NCBI GenBank assembly: GCA_964035015.1
Contig: OZ036017.1
Span: 1,054,001-1,118,000 of the forward strand
DNA: 64,000 nt
DNA from: Corallium rubrum
Taxonomy: Eukaryota > Cnidaria > Anthozoa > Scleralcyonacea > Coralliidae
Direction of reading: 5' to 3'
The notes under the pieces were generated by a model. The model searched no databases, had not been told where the DNA came from, and saw only the letters and a list, made by a program, of their open reading frames with translations. Position numbers and translations under genes: made by a program. This document shows, piece after piece, positions 2,501-63,506 of this stretch. How positions within the stretch are numbered: the first letter of the stretch is position 1; each line of letters starts with the position of its first letter.

Positions 2501-30639
<28,139 letters not shown>

Positions 30640-32949: not shown

Positions 32950-33017
<68 letters not shown>
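32950..33017. repeat. (TA)n microsatellite
   Basis: About 33 TA units; abuts the hairpin at 33018-33100. Confidence 0.98.
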
Positions 33018-33019
<2 letters not shown>

Positions 33020-33100
33020 CTCAAAAGTTGCTACAGGCTGTTTCATCTAAAAAGATTCTTCTTTTAAGATGAAACAGCCTGTAGCAGACTTTTGAGGTAA
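33018..33100. repeat. 83-bp near-perfect hairpin between TA microsatellites
   Basis: TTGCTACAGGCTGTTTCATC and its inverse pair, for about 36-bp arms around a short loop. Confidence 0.8.
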
Positions 33101-33171
33101 GCGAAAATCTATATTTGCTCTAACTATATGTTATCGAGCACTCTTTGCGTTTCGTAGACCAAAACCCACAC

Positions 33172-33276
<105 letters not shown>

Positions 33277-34674
33277 GTGGCTTACTGAGTCACAATTACG
33301 ACACGCTACCCCGAGAAAAAGACTTTTCCTTCATCGTGGCTCGCAGAAGAGTAATAAAAAACACTTTTTTGCGGCAATGAATGTACCGTTACTTTTTAAT
33401 CATCTTTCGGCCAACTAAACACATATATGTATAGAGGAAAAAAGTATATACAGTGTTACGCGGGCAGTATTTTGGATAGAAAAGATAAAGGACTGGGGGT
33501 TTAATCATCCTCAGTATTTCCACCCATGCAGCGGCGGCTGAATTACGAAGGACGCAGATCAACGTGGCTATGTCGAGGCATATCAAAGGCGCTCCAAGCA
33601 GCCACCATACGACACAGTTTAGACCACGATCACAGCTAAGATGTTATGGCATAGTTAATGTAACGCAAGATGTAAGTAATTGATTTTACGCAGCGAGGAA
33701 AACCGGAAAACCCAGCGAAAAACCCTCGAAGCACAGGAGGGATTCTACTCGATCTGACTACCCACATGAGTCGCCCAACCCAATGGTCCCCATGGCCGTT
33801 CTCGTGAAACGTTTCAATCCGTTGACAAACTTGTAAGGGGGGGGGGGGGGGTACATTGTGTTAAGGCCAAGTGAGTAGACTAGTAATGTGTTATATATTT
33901 AGCAGGCATGCATGTGCTATAAATTACAATACTAAGGTCTATACAAAACGCCTCCAACTTGTTTTTACATTTACGACTTGTTTATAAATAAATCTAAAGA
34001 TATTCTGACGTGTATCATTCTATGTTCTGGTTTGATTTCAACAAAATTATGTAATTTATGGCTTTTGGATTACTCTTAAATACTTGCCTCAAAATGCAGG
34101 AAATAGTGTTTCAGAGACCCTAGAAATCCAAAATTTTCCGGGGGGCATGCCCCCACATTCAAGACAGAGGCGTAGCCTGAGGGGGCCCCTGGCCGGGCGA
34201 AATTGTCGCCCCCTCCCCCTCCTGGAGAAATTCAGTCTAGTGCGTTACATTTTCATTCATTTTGCTATGAAAATTTTATTTTGCTATGCTTTTGACTTTG
34301 AGTATTTTGGGGTCGTTCAGTGTGTGTTGTGTTGACAGCCAAGGATCCCGGCGGAAATCTCCAGTACATCCCATTACAGTTATAGATACATCCTTTTACT
34401 TTTTTTAAATTATTTTTTAGGACCACAAGTTTGTTAGTACTTTGTACTATTAAGTGTCACCTTCTTTAAATAAAGTTTCTATCCGTATCTATCTAGTACA
34501 AAATTTAATAAAAAAAAACCCCAAAAAATCCCCCTCCGTTGGCCCTGGTTGAGCTGGCCCCTCCCAGGTTTTACCTGGCCCCCCTTGACAGAAAAACCTG
34601 ACTAGGTTGCTTTCGAGATATTACTAGCGTTCTTGGATGGGCACTGCAGTTCCACTTTCAAGCTGACAAGTTGG

Positions 34675-44251: not shown

Positions 44252-46342
44252 CTAAAATACATCACAGTCATCTGTCATTTCGATGGTGTCTTCATCAAAT
44301 TCAAAGGCAATACAGGATGGCCTCAGCCGCAGTTCATAATCTTCTAGTTTGTGAACCATGATGCTAAAGGTAGGACGGTCATCAGGTGATGCTAACCAAC
44401 AGGAGTACATGATCGCATACAAATCATCAGGGCATCTCAGTGGCCGAGACAGTCTCTTTCCAGTTTCAAGGTAAGGTGTGACCTCGTGGTTATCAAGACC
44501 AGCATATGGCTGAGAGCCCAAAGTTACAAGTTCCCATAACACAATACCAAAAGACCAGATATCACTCTTCTCTGTGAATATATAGTACAGCAAACTTTCA
44601 AGTGCCAGCCATTTCACTGCTAACTGAGTAGGGTGCTCCACTTTGTGCAAACCAAACTGGTGCATCTTTCTTGCCAGAGCAAAATCACCAATTTTCACAT
44701 TCAGGTCTTGGTCGACAAAGCAATTCCTGGTGGCCAAGTCCCGATGGACCACTTTCTGACTAGATAAGTATTCCATTCCACGAGCAATTTGCGTCGCAAA
44801 GTTCACGAGTTGTCTCGAGCCAATCAGCTGGCGACGAATACCAATCCCTCGAGAATGCCTCAAGAATTTGTGTAAATCTCCATGTGCCAACAATGGCGTT
44901 AAGATCAGAGGTGGAGAGGACGGTTGTAGTATTACTCCAAGCAGATTTAATAAGTTCTCGTGTCCCAGTGTTTTCATAAGAATAGCCTCGTTGACACACG
45001 TGATCATCTGCTCGAATTCGATATCATCCAGGCAAACTTTCACGGCCACATCCACACACGACGTTGTAGTGTACGCCTCTCGGTCGCTCACCATCTTCCC
45101 TTTATAAACACGGCCGAACATCCCTTCGCCCAACACTTCTGTACAAATTTCGACTTCGTCCCTCGATTTTAAAGTGCCTTCTAGTTTTGTCGCCCAATAT
45201 TCGTTCAAAGTTGAGTACATTTGCTTCTTGTTGTCAGATTCTTTCGCCAGCGTGAGCGTTGGTGAAGAATGTTCGTTTCCGATTAAGGAAACATCGCATT
45301 GCTCCGAGACAAAAACATCGTCTTCGACACTAATTTCACTAAAAAGCTTTCGTTCTTGGCTATTACAGCCAACACGATGTCCACTAGGACTCTTCGTCGG
45401 ATCAACAGATCGTTGTTCTTGCTTGCCGTTGAAATGCGAAGAATGGTTCGAGTTTATGTTTGGTGGACAAATTGGACAACACTGTTGTTTCGACTTCGAT
45501 TCGCGTTTCACTATCTTCGTAAAGAAGTTATTTGCCGATCGATCGCGTGTCGGAGAATAGACGACAGTCGGGAGTTGAGACGTAGCTGTCGAACGGTTCG
45601 AAGAATGACAAGTTACGTTGGTGAGGGGAGACAGTCGTTCGGTTACTTCGTCGAAGCCAAATTTCTTTTTGATACGCTTGACCAAACGCCAGAAGAAAAC
45701 GACCAAAATACAAACGCACACAACACAAGCGAGAGCCGCACTAACGGTTACAACAACTGTACGATTAACGTGCTTCGTCGTCGTTGCTTTTGTGGTCCCT
45801 CCCTTATCGATCGATCCGGTTATTGTGCACCGCTTGGCCACTGAAAACGCCAGAGTTCGTTTGGACGAGCGGCGGGTGTTGTGGTCGTAGTTTGTGTAAT
45901 TCAACACAAATTTTACGTTCACCGATTCATGGACTAGGCCAGTACAAGGAAGTGTAATTTCAAACGCTTTTGACTCTTGAACTGTTCCCTGCAACGGAAT
46001 GGGCGAAATTTTGGGTTCACTCATTACTTTCAGGTCCGAAGATGTGACCCGAAGCGAGTAGCGTTCGCTATGCGTTTCCGCCATCCAAGTCATTTCGACA
46101 CGTTTTACACCCGAAGAGAGCGGTCGTGTAGCTTTGTTGAACAACTTGGCGTTGCCGAAAACGGGATGCCGGACGCCGTTCTTGATCAAGAAAATATCGT
46201 TGTCGACGGGATAACCCAGTTCAGTTTCGGCAAATTGCCGCTTTACGACCAACGTCAGTCCACAGTCGACAGGGGAAACAGCAAAGAGAATGTAAATAAC
46301 AATGGCGATACATTTCCAAATACGTTGAGCGCTTCGAGCCAT
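44252..46342 (-). CDS. RYK: RYK-like Wnt receptor, WIF domain plus kinase-like domain, single exon
   Basis: 696 residues, uninterrupted. Order: signal peptide about 1-26 (hydrophobic CIAIVIYILFAV), WIF domain about 29-172 with the paired cysteines C133 and C172, a Thr-rich stalk, a membrane segment about 195-217 followed by basic residues, a Ser-rich cytoplasmic linker of about 170 residues, and a kinase-like domain about 398-672. WIF plus kinase is unique to the RYK/Derailed family of Wnt receptors at the cell surface. Seen in the kinase: glycine loop GEGMFGRV (405-412), VAVK (K435), helix-C Glu in NEAILMKTL (E452), HRDLATRN (533-540), DFA (553-555) instead of DFG, and WLALES as in RYK. Vertebrate RYK is regarded as a pseudokinase with an altered DFG; here K, E and HRD are intact. 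It ends in DCDVF. Possible minus-strand poly(A) signals (TTTATT on the plus strand) lie at 42890 and 42090. The start is supported by the signal peptide. Being intronless suggests intron loss or an old retrocopy. Confidence 0.9.
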   Translation of the reverse strand: MARSAQRIWKCIAIVIYILFAVSPVDCGLTLVVKRQFAETELGYPVDNDIFLIKNGVRHPVFGNAKLFNKATRPLSSGVKRVEMTWMAETHSERYSLRVTSSDLKVMSEPKISPIPLQGTVQESKAFEITLPCTGLVHESVNVKFVLNYTNYDHNTRRSSKRTLAFSVAKRCTITGSIDKGGTTKATTTKHVNRTVVVTVSAALACVVCVCILVVFFWRLVKRIKKKFGFDEVTERLSPLTNVTCHSSNRSTATSQLPTVVYSPTRDRSANNFFTKIVKRESKSKQQCCPICPPNINSNHSSHFNGKQEQRSVDPTKSPSGHRVGCNSQERKLFSEISVEDDVFVSEQCDVSLIGNEHSSPTLTLAKESDNKKQMYSTLNEYWATKLEGTLKSRDEVEICTEVLGEGMFGRVYKGKMVSDREAYTTTSCVDVAVKVCLDDIEFEQMITCVNEAILMKTLGHENLLNLLGVILQPSSPPLILTPLLAHGDLHKFLRHSRGIGIRRQLIGSRQLVNFATQIARGMEYLSSQKVVHRDLATRNCFVDQDLNVKIGDFALARKMHQFGLHKVEHPTQLAVKWLALESLLYYIFTEKSDIWSFGIVLWELVTLGSQPYAGLDNHEVTPYLETGKRLSRPLRCPDDLYAIMYSCWLASPDDRPTFSIMVHKLEDYELRLRPSCIAFEFDEDTIEMTDDCDVF

Positions 46343-46620
46343 CCTGTTGCCGTGGCCGACAAGTTATGATTGATTTTCTTCTTGACCTGTCTCGGCTCAT
46401 GTCATATGAACATCAGGAAGTAAGTGGAAATCCGATAACCTACCAACATGTGGCTATCTATTTCGTGGCGTTCGATCGAGTAGAGCCAAAAAACAAACGT
46501 TCACACCTCGCTCCAACAACGTAAACACTGAACATTCCATTCACTGATGAAGGGCAAGTCACATGAGTTGCGTCACGAACCAATCAAACGTCATTCATCG
46601 CTACCTGCTACGGCCTCACC
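46343..46620 (-). promoter_or_regulatory. Upstream region of the RYK-like gene
   Basis: This is a 280-bp stretch before the ATG with no recognised transposon. It holds a CCAAT sequence (46580-46584), a CRE-like TGCGTCAC just beside it and another ACGTCA. There is no TATA box at a typical place. The assignment as promoter is by position only. Confidence 0.25.
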
Positions 46621-52266: not shown

Positions 52267-52751
52267 TTAAAGTGTATATGAAACGAAAATTAAGTTTGTT
52301 TTATTTGAAAGAACTCTTAAAATAATGGGGAATATCAATTTATAGCTTTTTCATATTTTACTTAGTTCTTGAGATATTTAGACTTAGTGTGATATTCAAA
52401 TGAGATAACTTATGGTTCGTTTTTTTCTAATTAACATATTCGAAAATCGTGAATATTTTTAAGATTATTGATCAAAATCACTTGTAGCTTGTCTTTCATG
52501 TTTAGTTGCATGAACTGTAGCAATATGCAAAGTTTCAAGTGATTTTGTTCAATAATCTTAAAAATATTCGCGATTTTCGAATATGTTAATTAGAAAAAAA
52601 CGAACCATAAGTTATCTCATTTGAATATCACATAAGTCTAAATATCTCAAGAACTAAGTAAAATATAAAAAGCTGTAAATTAATATTCCCCATTATTTTA
52701 AGAGTTCTTTCAAATAAGACAAACTTAATTTTAGTTTCATATACACTTTAA
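52267..52751. mobile_element. Long-arm foldback element
   Basis: Arms of about 225 bp starting TTAAAGTGTATATGAAACG are nearly identical inverses around a ~30-nt centre (GCATGAACTGTAGCAATATG). Related to 15311-15766. Confidence 0.85.
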
Positions 52752-57445: not shown

Positions 57446-57837
57446 TATATAATAAGCCATAATATAAACAATACTAGCACAACTGTGTAATTAAGTAAAC
57501 GTTAATTAGAAAGTTAGCGGCGCTTGGGCGCGAGCGAGTGGAGAGGGGGGAAGGGGAGGGAAGAGAACAGTTTTACAAAAGATTTATTGAGCTCTAAACC
57601 GAGATCGCCTGCTGGATTTTCCTCGTGAAGCGAGTGAAATCGTCTGGTGTTGGCCAGTAAAATACATAAGACTTGACTTGAGAGTCGGATGCTGCACAGA
57701 AAGCGTGCGAGTAATATAATTACTTGGGCTATTTGTGATAATTAAGGCCCGAGACTATTCTGCGTAGCAAATAGACGTTATCGCATGTACGTCGATCGAG
57801 AAGGAAAGCTCTGTTTTAAACGGTAATCAGGCCAACA

Positions 57838-59928: not shown

Positions 59929-60195
59929 TGGGCGAATTTGATTTAAAGCTTGTTTTAGACGTCGCATTACTCGGGCTACCACAGGTAGACGAGTCTAGGT
60001 TTCGGCTCGTTTTTTTTGGGGGTTTTTTCCTTCTGTGTCACGCTCTTAGCCTACTCCGCAGGCCTCTCTAATCAGAAAGCGCAGGCTCAAGTCAAGTGCG
60101 CATTTAACTTACTTATTCCGCCGTCTCGATCAGGACAAACATAATAAGATTTCGCGAAACTGATGCGTGCATGCCAAATGCTTTCTTTCTTTGCT

Positions 60196-60590
60196 TTCCT
60201 GATGTCTGATCAAGTCTTTCTCCTCTCGGATGTGTTTTGTGTTTTCACAGACCTAGTTATTGGTCAGTAATGTCGCTGGCAATTATCTTGATATTATATA
60301 TATACGCTTACGATCTCACACGCCGTATACATGAAGCTGTGTTGATATTTAATACCCGAAGAGACTTGACATATGAACGCTGTACATGTGTGGAAATAAT
60401 GCTTTCTTTCTTAGCTTTCCTACTGTCTGACGATCAGAGTCTGATCAAGTCTTTCTCGTCTCGGATGTGTTTTGGGTGTTCACAGACATAGTTTGATATT
60501 GGTCAGTAATGTCGCTAGCTGTGTTGATATTTAATACCCAAAGAGACTCGGCATATGAACGCTGTGTACATGTGTGGAAATACGTTACAG
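60196..60590. repeat. Imperfect direct duplication of about 200 bp
   Basis: TCTGATCAAGTCTTTCTC, GGTCAGTAATGTCGCT and GTGTTGATATTTAATACCC each occur twice in the same order, with indels. Confidence 0.75.
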
Positions 60591-60637
60591 GCAATCGTGT
60601 TTTGTGTATTGCAAATTGCGTTTTCTATCGGAGATTG

Positions 60638-61598
60638 GAGTGTAACTATAAGTCGAGGGTCGAGAGTCGAGAGTCGAGGTCGAGAGTCGAGAGTCGACGG
60701 TCGAGAGTCGAGAGTCGACGGTCGAGAGTCGAGAGTCGAAGTCGAGAGTCGAGGGTTGAAGTCGAGAGTCGATAAATTGACCAGAAAATACCAAAAAATC
60801 ACTATAATACTATAATCGATTATATATCCCAACATTGTGTCTTATTTCTACGCGCCGCGGGATATATTTATAACCTTTGAGCCTTTGATCTAAAAACCGG
60901 GGGAAAGCGGCCACTTTCACGAACAGCTTACATAGAAATAATGATCTATTCACTAAAAACCGGGGGAAAGCGGCCACTTTCACGACGAAAGTATATCCTT
61001 TAAGCCTTTAAACGAAACGCAATCGGCAAGTCTCTAGAAGGTAACTTGACTCACTTGAAACAAGTAACTTTTGTGAAGTTTCTTTTACAACAACAGCAGG
61101 AAACGAATATCTGTCATCGCATTGTAGAAGTATCTGTTACTTTATTCGGGTATAGAATATCATACGCCGTTAAGCCTTCATTTCAGCTTCTCGAATTATC
61201 CTTTCAAACAAAACGGCGCCTGGCGTTACGCAGTATATAAATATATATTTGCTAAAAAGCGACGCATACATAACTATTTCTATGTAAGCTGTTCGTGAAA
61301 GTATGTAAGCTGTTCGTGAAAGTGGCCGCTTTCCCCCGGTTTTTAGATCAAAGGCTCAAAGGTTATAAATATATCCCGCGGCGCGTAGAAATAAGACACA
61401 ATGTTGGGATATATAATCGATTATAGTATTATAGTGATTTTTTGGTATTTTCTGGTCAATTTATCGACTCTCGACTTCAACCCTCGACTCTCGACTTCGA
61501 CTCTCGACTCTCGACCGTCGACTCTCGACTCTCGACCGTCGACTCTCGACTCTCGACCTCGACTCTCGACTCTCGACCCTCGACTTATAGTTACACTC
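60638..61598. mobile_element. Mutator-like non-autonomous element, 297-bp identical TIRs, 9-bp TSD
   Basis: The TIRs 60638-60934 and 61302-61598 are inverted copies with no difference found by eye, starting GAGTGTAACTATAAG. CGGAGATTG flanks both sides (60629-60637, 61599-61607). Each TIR contains a (GAGAGTC)n-type minisatellite (60655-60775) and a GGGGGAAAGCGGCCACTTTC motif, which is repeated at 60960. The 367-bp centre has a 64-codon frame of unknown origin. Long TIRs plus a 9-bp duplication are the Mutator pattern. Confidence 0.85.
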
Positions 61599-62820
61599 CG
61601 GAGATTGGATTGTGTTTTTGACTTTTGTCTGCGACCTGAATGTGTTTAGACGGCGGCTTTAGATCTTAGCACTGGATGTGACAACCTGCGCGTGATTTTG
61701 CAGTAGCCCGAGTGAACGCCTGACCAGGCGTCTTGTTTAACAATATTCGACCCTGTCAACTGTGTTCGTCGTTTAAAACAGAGCTTAATTAGAACCGTCT
61801 GCAGGAACCTCCACAGTTCTATTCTGATCAGGTCAGTGACCTGCGCAACCGTCTTTCAACAAGCCGCATTCATTACAATCTAGACCCGGCTGGGGTTCCA
61901 TTGATGTGCGTAATTCTGAAGTAATACTTCCTATATTGAAGTAATAAACCGTGGGCGGAACTAACTTAATTATGACGAATATAGAGAAGAAGAAAAAATG
62001 AAATCATCTCGGCGTAAAAAGACACAAAGCATACCGCGCACATGTTCGGTGTTTCAGAGATGACACAAACATGTTATTTGAAATTTTTGCGACTTTTTCC
62101 ACTTGCTTTTTGACTTTCGCTCCCTCTAGTATTTTCGCGTCTTTTTTACTTTGTACGTTAGCATGTATGTTCGTAGGAAGCAGGGGGGGGGGGGGGGCGC
62201 TCCCCTAAAGGCCGAACGAGGGAAGCTGAGTGCCTGAGTCCCCCTAGAAATTTGACAGTAACGCACTAGAGCGAAGACGGGAAAGAAAAGTATTTGATAC
62301 CAAGCACATAGACGATCAGCGACTGTATTGGATAAGTCCCCTAAGTTTAGTAATGCTCCAGAATTATGTAAAAACATGATTTAATCCTACCCCAAATAAT
62401 TTAGGTATTTGATTTGAGTTTTTTATTATGGTGTTTCATGACACTTTTTTTAACCATAACCAGATTTCTGCAAATTCTTCCCCCAAAATGCAGGAAATGG
62501 CATTTCCGAGACTCTACATTTCAAAATTTTCCGAGCCTCAGCCTTCGGCTGATAATACAAACCTCGGCCTTGATATAATTCTTGATATCATGCTCAACCG
62601 CGTCCAATAATTGTTAAATGTTACTTATGGAGCTTCGGGTACCCATTGCCAAAGAAGTAACAATTTACTAAAAGCTTTGCCTCGAGACGTCACCAGTATT
62701 TTGTTACCTAATTAAAATCTTCACAACTTTCGAGTGGTTGCTTATTAGTCTCGTTTTCCCACTCAGGGAGTTCATCACCTTCAAGCATTTTGGTTTACAA
62801 TTTTGATTTGCTTAATCCGA

Positions 62821-63454: not shown

Positions 63455-63506
63455 ATGGACGATGGACCATGGACGATGGACGATGGACGATGGACGATGG
63501 ACGATG
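63455..63506. repeat. (ATGGACG)n minisatellite
   Basis: Seven-bp units GATGGAC, about seven copies. Confidence 0.9.

Follow-up and report, generated by a model that had tools for sequence, protein, structure and literature searches.

The window (the whole stretch of 64,000 nucleotides that was analysed) had a G+C content of 37.5% and a CpG observed/expected ratio of 1.0. A frame on the minus strand at 44252-46363 combined a WIF with a tyrosine-kinase domain, as in the animal receptor RYK. On this account the host is taken to be an animal; it may be a cnidarian. Another minus-strand frame, at 7154-7576, matched FAD_binding_1 with a score under the curated cut-off (E 5.5e-6), and may be an exon of a host gene of the reductase type. 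Inverted arms of 224 and 222 bp, with 214 matches, 8 mismatches and 2 gaps, were present at 52267-52751; TTAA was found at the start and at the end of this pair, which resembles a MITE derived from a transposon with TTAA as its target. An inverted pair at 11968-12533, which overlaps a plus-strand frame with a sub-threshold match to the THAP domain (12243-12557), is possibly a decayed transposon remnant.

The element described here lies towards the end of the window, and its features are presented in Table 1. Directly to its left, a stretch of roughly 200 bp is tandemly duplicated in imperfect form (60177-60580). The two inverted arms were complementary at 298/298 nt (100%) and were separated by a spacing of 367 nt. 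Identical inverted ends of 297 bp had been reported in a preliminary description of this DNA; this figure is the count obtained when the arm starts at 60638. From the outside inwards, each arm began with an end of 14 bases, continued with 122 bases of TCGA-rich heptamers and closed with a 162-base part with a G+C content of 36%. The period-7 arrays of the two arms did not differ by a single letter over their 122 bp, as had been claimed earlier for every unit of the array. A second exact period-7 array was observed at 63469-63506; its unit (ATGGACG) is unrelated to that of the element.

Table 1. Coordinates of the element and of its parts within the window.
Feature	Position	Strand	Description
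Left copy of the probable target-site duplication CGGAGATTG, 9 bp	60629..60637	+	7-bp alternative GGAGATT at 60630-60636
Left terminal inverted repeat	60637..60934	+	298 nt, fully complementary (100%) to the right repeat; 297 nt when its first base is counted with the target duplication
Subterminal tandem array, left arm	60651..60772	+	GTCGAGA-type heptamers, a few 6-nt units, two adjacent 21-bp (3 x 7) units
Centre	60935..61301		367 bp, no recognised coding content; includes the extra 21-bp unit 61281-61301
21-bp tandem duplication, inner edge of the right arm	61281..61322	-	61281-61301 identical to 61302-61322; left arm lacks it
Right terminal inverted repeat	61302..61599	-	298 nt
Heptamer array, right arm	61464..61585	-	Identical to the left-arm array
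Right copy of the probable target-site duplication CGGAGATTG, 9 bp	61599..61607	+	Flanking direct repeat

An 11-bp direct repeat, CGGAGATTGGA, was found at 60629-60639 and 61599-61609, with agreement between the copies at 11/11 positions. It was the sole direct repeat of at least 7 bp near both ends of the element. This repeat can be divided between target and element in two ways that leave the ends symmetric. With a duplication of 9 bp (CGGAGATTG), the element spans 60638-61598 and its ends fall at GAGTGTAAC. With a duplication of 7 bp (GGAGATT), the element spans 60637-61599 and its ends are GGAGTG...CACTCC. The 9-bp reading was favoured because it requires fewer coincidences, and the target duplication is therefore probably 9 bp as the best fit, with 7 bp also possible on a single copy. 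The 9-bp target repeat of the preliminary description thus stands in that a direct repeat is present (of 11 bp) and that 9 bp fits it best, but 7 bp is also geometrically possible. Matches of 9 bp at a spacing of 900-1039 bp occurred within the window at 8.4e-6 per compared position (8,824,270 positions compared, with repeats unmasked). When the two flanks were joined and compared with the window, they matched, besides their own sequence, the nearby tandem duplicate to the left, 41 bp at 9731-9771 and 17 bp at 57806-57822. No match at the latter two sites or at the left duplicate crossed the junction, and hence no empty-site paralogue was detected within the window.

The identity of the arms ended at 60934/61302. 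Past the extra 21-bp unit carried by the right arm, similarity continued over about 15 bases that included 3 mismatches, before the arms diverged (inverted pair of 37 nt, 92%). The duplication and this divergence show that the arms are unequal beyond the 298 bases. In addition, a 33-bp direct copy of the arm stretch 60890-60922 was present on the left side of the centre, at 60953-60985. This copy and the extra 21-bp unit together indicate that small duplications happened around the inner ends of the arms. The longest frame inside the centre (61004-61237, 78 aa) had no match in Pfam at E up to 0.01 and none in the PDB at E up to 1. For this frame, the result agrees with the earlier statement that the centre encodes no recognisable transposase. 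In a BLAST comparison of the element and of its centre with the window, the matches were short, mostly AT-rich, or copies internal to the element, and none was gene-like. The searches with the longest frame and the comparison within the window thus gave no support to the capture of a host exon by the centre. The suggestion that it might be host-derived as in a Pack-MULE is unsupported within this scope, although a capture from exons outside the window may have occurred.

The inverted arms were compared with other inverted pairs of the window and with chance. The folding energy of the element as single-stranded DNA was -429.5 kcal/mol, whereas 20 dinucleotide shuffles averaged -112.1 (sd 6.0) and none of them (0/20) was as good as the element, which places the structure beyond chance. 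Its arms were the longest exact inverted match among the best 25 pairs of the window, as ranked by exact 30-mers. From these 25 rows, six inverted pairs were chosen manually and re-aligned with gaps; the TA-microsatellite rows at about 32950-33279 and the distant pair 4418-4471/30144-30197 were excluded. This element had the most matched bases of the six pairs (298) and zero differences, and was one of two pairs that were free of differences, the other being an exact pair of only 54 nt. The remaining four long pairs contained 8 to 23 mismatches as well as gaps, and two of them span similar or longer arms. One of the six pairs, 7604-7925 / 20462-20750, has its members 12.5 kb apart and may represent two copies instead of one element. 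From 0 differences at 298 sites, we calculated an upper 95% bound of approximately 1% for the divergence of the arms.

Taken together, the locus most likely harbours a non-autonomous Foldback-like DNA transposon, probably of the Mutator superfamily (MULE), which was inserted recently by cut-and-paste, with no gene recognised beside the insertion. We assign this reading a probability of about 0.72. The multi-domain long inverted ends with tandem repeats and the 367-bp middle domain correspond to a Foldback-type structure, and the 298-bp terminal inverted repeats correspond to the long ends of MULEs. Mutator was preferred because the long composite ends, the subterminal tandem repeats and the likely 9-bp duplication match described systems. 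The superfamily is a structural assignment which we infer from the anatomy of a single copy. The earlier designation as Mutator-like is therefore retained as the best anatomical fit, but as an assignment from structure, neither a transposase relative among the frames scanned nor a second copy in the window having been found. BLAST detected no second copy of the element in the window, and 31 of its 157 stop-to-stop frames of at least 70 aa were scanned against Pfam, with no match to a MULE transposase and none to a PHD-finger transposase among them.

In the process that we envisage, a transposase supplied by an autonomous relative located elsewhere would bind both ends of the element, excise it and join it to a staggered cut in the target, and repair of the resulting gaps would create the 9-bp duplication. 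The heptamer arrays probably originated by slippage. They may supply additional binding sites for the transposase, by analogy with the internal repeats of Galileo, for which such a binding role is cited in the Tetris paper (PMC4079207).

The same working with another transposase was also considered, in the form of a Foldback-like element of a different superfamily, either P (Galileo-like, with the 7-bp duplication GGAGATT) or Merlin (8-9 bp). This alternative was judged rather unlikely. Target duplications are 7 bp in Galileo and 8-9 bp in Merlin, and the P superfamily, with Galileo, has duplications of 7-8 bp and a THAP-domain transposase. THAP domains are found in other proteins too. A 7-bp cut that leaves the ends GGAGTG...CACTCC is geometrically possible, but the two extra flanking matches (60629/61599 and 60637/61607) would then become coincidences. 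The texts on Tm1 and Tetris state that Foldback structure arises in different lineages (PMC3169594, PMC4079207), which is consistent with an origin outside Mutator. The frame at 12243-12557 gave a sub-threshold match to THAP (E 0.0018; score 19.5 bits, cut-off 23.9), the one transposon-like hint among the frames scanned. As the Tetris paper names THAP as a component of the Galileo transposase (PMC4079207), this match leans very slightly towards the 7-bp alternative, but it lies 48 kb from the element and under its cut-off.

For the Mutator-type element that we prefer, the identical arms and the intact flanking repeat favour a recent insertion, with arm-to-arm conversion as an alternative. As the arms are identical, too little time for drift has passed since they were last equal, whether this equality was due to the insertion of a symmetric element or to conversion of one arm by the other. 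The recent mobility proposed in the preliminary description was thus supported by the identical long ends and by the intact, in-register direct repeat. The age argument that it drew from the identity of the arrays points the right way, but youth or homogenisation already follows from the 298 identical bases by themselves.

A more ambitious version, in which the element would belong to an active, undescribed animal MULE/Foldback family, is regarded as improbable. The TCGA-rich array would in this case serve as a multi-site platform for the transposase, conversion between the arms would actively keep them equal, and the 21-bp duplication (60934/61302) would mark the edge of the last conversion tract. 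Still less probable is an old insertion in which repeated gene conversion or hairpin-templated repair equalised the arms, so that their identity would be uninformative on age. Long inverted arms make a hairpin possible, and identity gives way, exactly at its end, to the extra 21-bp unit and to divergence, as it would at the border of a conversion tract. However, the flanking repeat, which lies outside any such tract, has not decayed (11/11), a weak argument as the repeat is so short. The arms of Tm1 elements average only 93.15% identity in the published comparison (PMC3169594), and homogenisation is therefore not general in elements of this kind. That the structure is an artefact of assembly, or just a local inverted duplication with no transposon involved, is scarcely credible: a false join could yield two perfectly identical arms 367 bp apart, but an inversion or inverted duplication would not leave the two outer ends flanked by an 11-bp direct repeat. 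As the arms are also unlike at their inner edges, the second cannot be simply the first one mirrored.

The occurrence of the heptamer array in bacteria and viruses was also assessed. The exact patterns of the end, the inner arm and the array gave 0 matches each in viral contigs. Prokaryote contigs carried the exact pattern (GAGTCGA)x3 in at least 120 stretches. In all of the 120 loci listed (120/120), the resemblance to the element was confined to the array: the 162-bp inner arm and the centre had no match in these loci at E up to 0.01, in a comparison for which the 14-bp outer end was too short. Other tandem arrays, defined as at least 18 consecutive matched positions, were counted in the 120 listed loci after the seed arrays had been masked (843,613 bases). 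There were 61 arrays at period 7, 7 at period 8 and 3 at period 9, with none at the remaining periods of 4 to 12 in these loci and none in composition shuffles. The 61 period-7 arrays represented 30 units, one of which accounted for 18 arrays. As a heptamer had served to select these loci, and as some of them share an assembly, the counts may be enriched for heptamer arrays. An inverted 14-base piece of the array was found within 150 bases in 17 of the 120 listed loci, where a hairpin is possible. That heptamer repeats are in excess in bacteria has been published before (PMC4692102). As the array alone resembles the element, kinship with the bacterial loci was rejected in favour of independent slippage. 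The (GAGTCGA)x3 family in bacteria seems worth a survey in itself.

Judged by its sequence anatomy, the build of the element is already known, and matches transposons of nematodes, mosquitoes and fruit flies. The sequence GAGAGTCGAGAGTC was absent from a full-text literature search, which is weak evidence as papers rarely print sequences in their text. The coral MITEs of PMC2872659 were not counted as relatives because the text gives TTAA duplications and a length of about 100 bp for them, and the minisatellite-bearing MITE reported from P. gingivalis (PMC4596501) was taken as a bacterial parallel only.

Tm1, a Mutator/Foldback family of root-knot nematodes, is described with duplications of 8-10 bp in 45 of 53 elements, mostly of 9 bp, and with composite inverted ends that carry a short motif in tandem, as in the element described here (PMC3169594). 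The family also includes a MITE-like group, with one described element of 1080 bp, and its arms were identical over the compared portions in 5 of 61 elements (PMC3169594). In contrast to the present element, the tandem unit of Tm1 is most often 14 bp and of a different sequence, 7-bp terminal motifs lie outside the inverted repeat, the number of units is unequal between the ends of some elements, and members with a putative transposase are known (PMC3169594). The Muta1-14 MULEs of Aedes aegypti likewise have inverted ends of more than 100 bp and non-autonomous derivatives, and 10 of their 12 long-TIR families also carry short tandem repeats in a subterminal position; their duplications are 8-9 bp (PMC5225508). 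Their repeat units, however, are 9-15 bp, and the families were defined through full-length elements with a transposase (PMC5225508).

Tetris, a Foldback element of Drosophila virilis that was placed in Mutator by its authors, is also non-autonomous, with internal tandem repeats in its inverted ends, and a middle domain without apparent coding capacity; its duplications are 8-10 bp (PMC4079207). It differs in its longer repeat unit (TIR-220, a length taken from the name), and in having three structurally complete copies and derived satellite arrays (PMC4079207). MULEs as a group are reported to have duplications of 8-11 bp and ends that are commonly hundreds of bp long, although some lack such ends (PMC6446971); the duplication here is 9 bp as the best fit, with 7 bp possible on the single copy. 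Rehavkus, from insects and annelids and with a PHD finger in its transposase, resembles the element in its inverted ends of 26-400 bp, its minisatellite and, on the 9-bp reading, its 9-bp duplications (PMC6446971). The minisatellite of Rehavkus is described as preceding the 3' inverted repeat (PMC6446971), whereas equal arrays lie within both arms here. To these systems, the present element adds one well-preserved Foldback-like example with heptamer arrays in both arms. It is a possible marker of recent transposon activity in the host and, if its copies prove polymorphic, would point to a live Mutator-type system in this species, which would be useful though not surprising.
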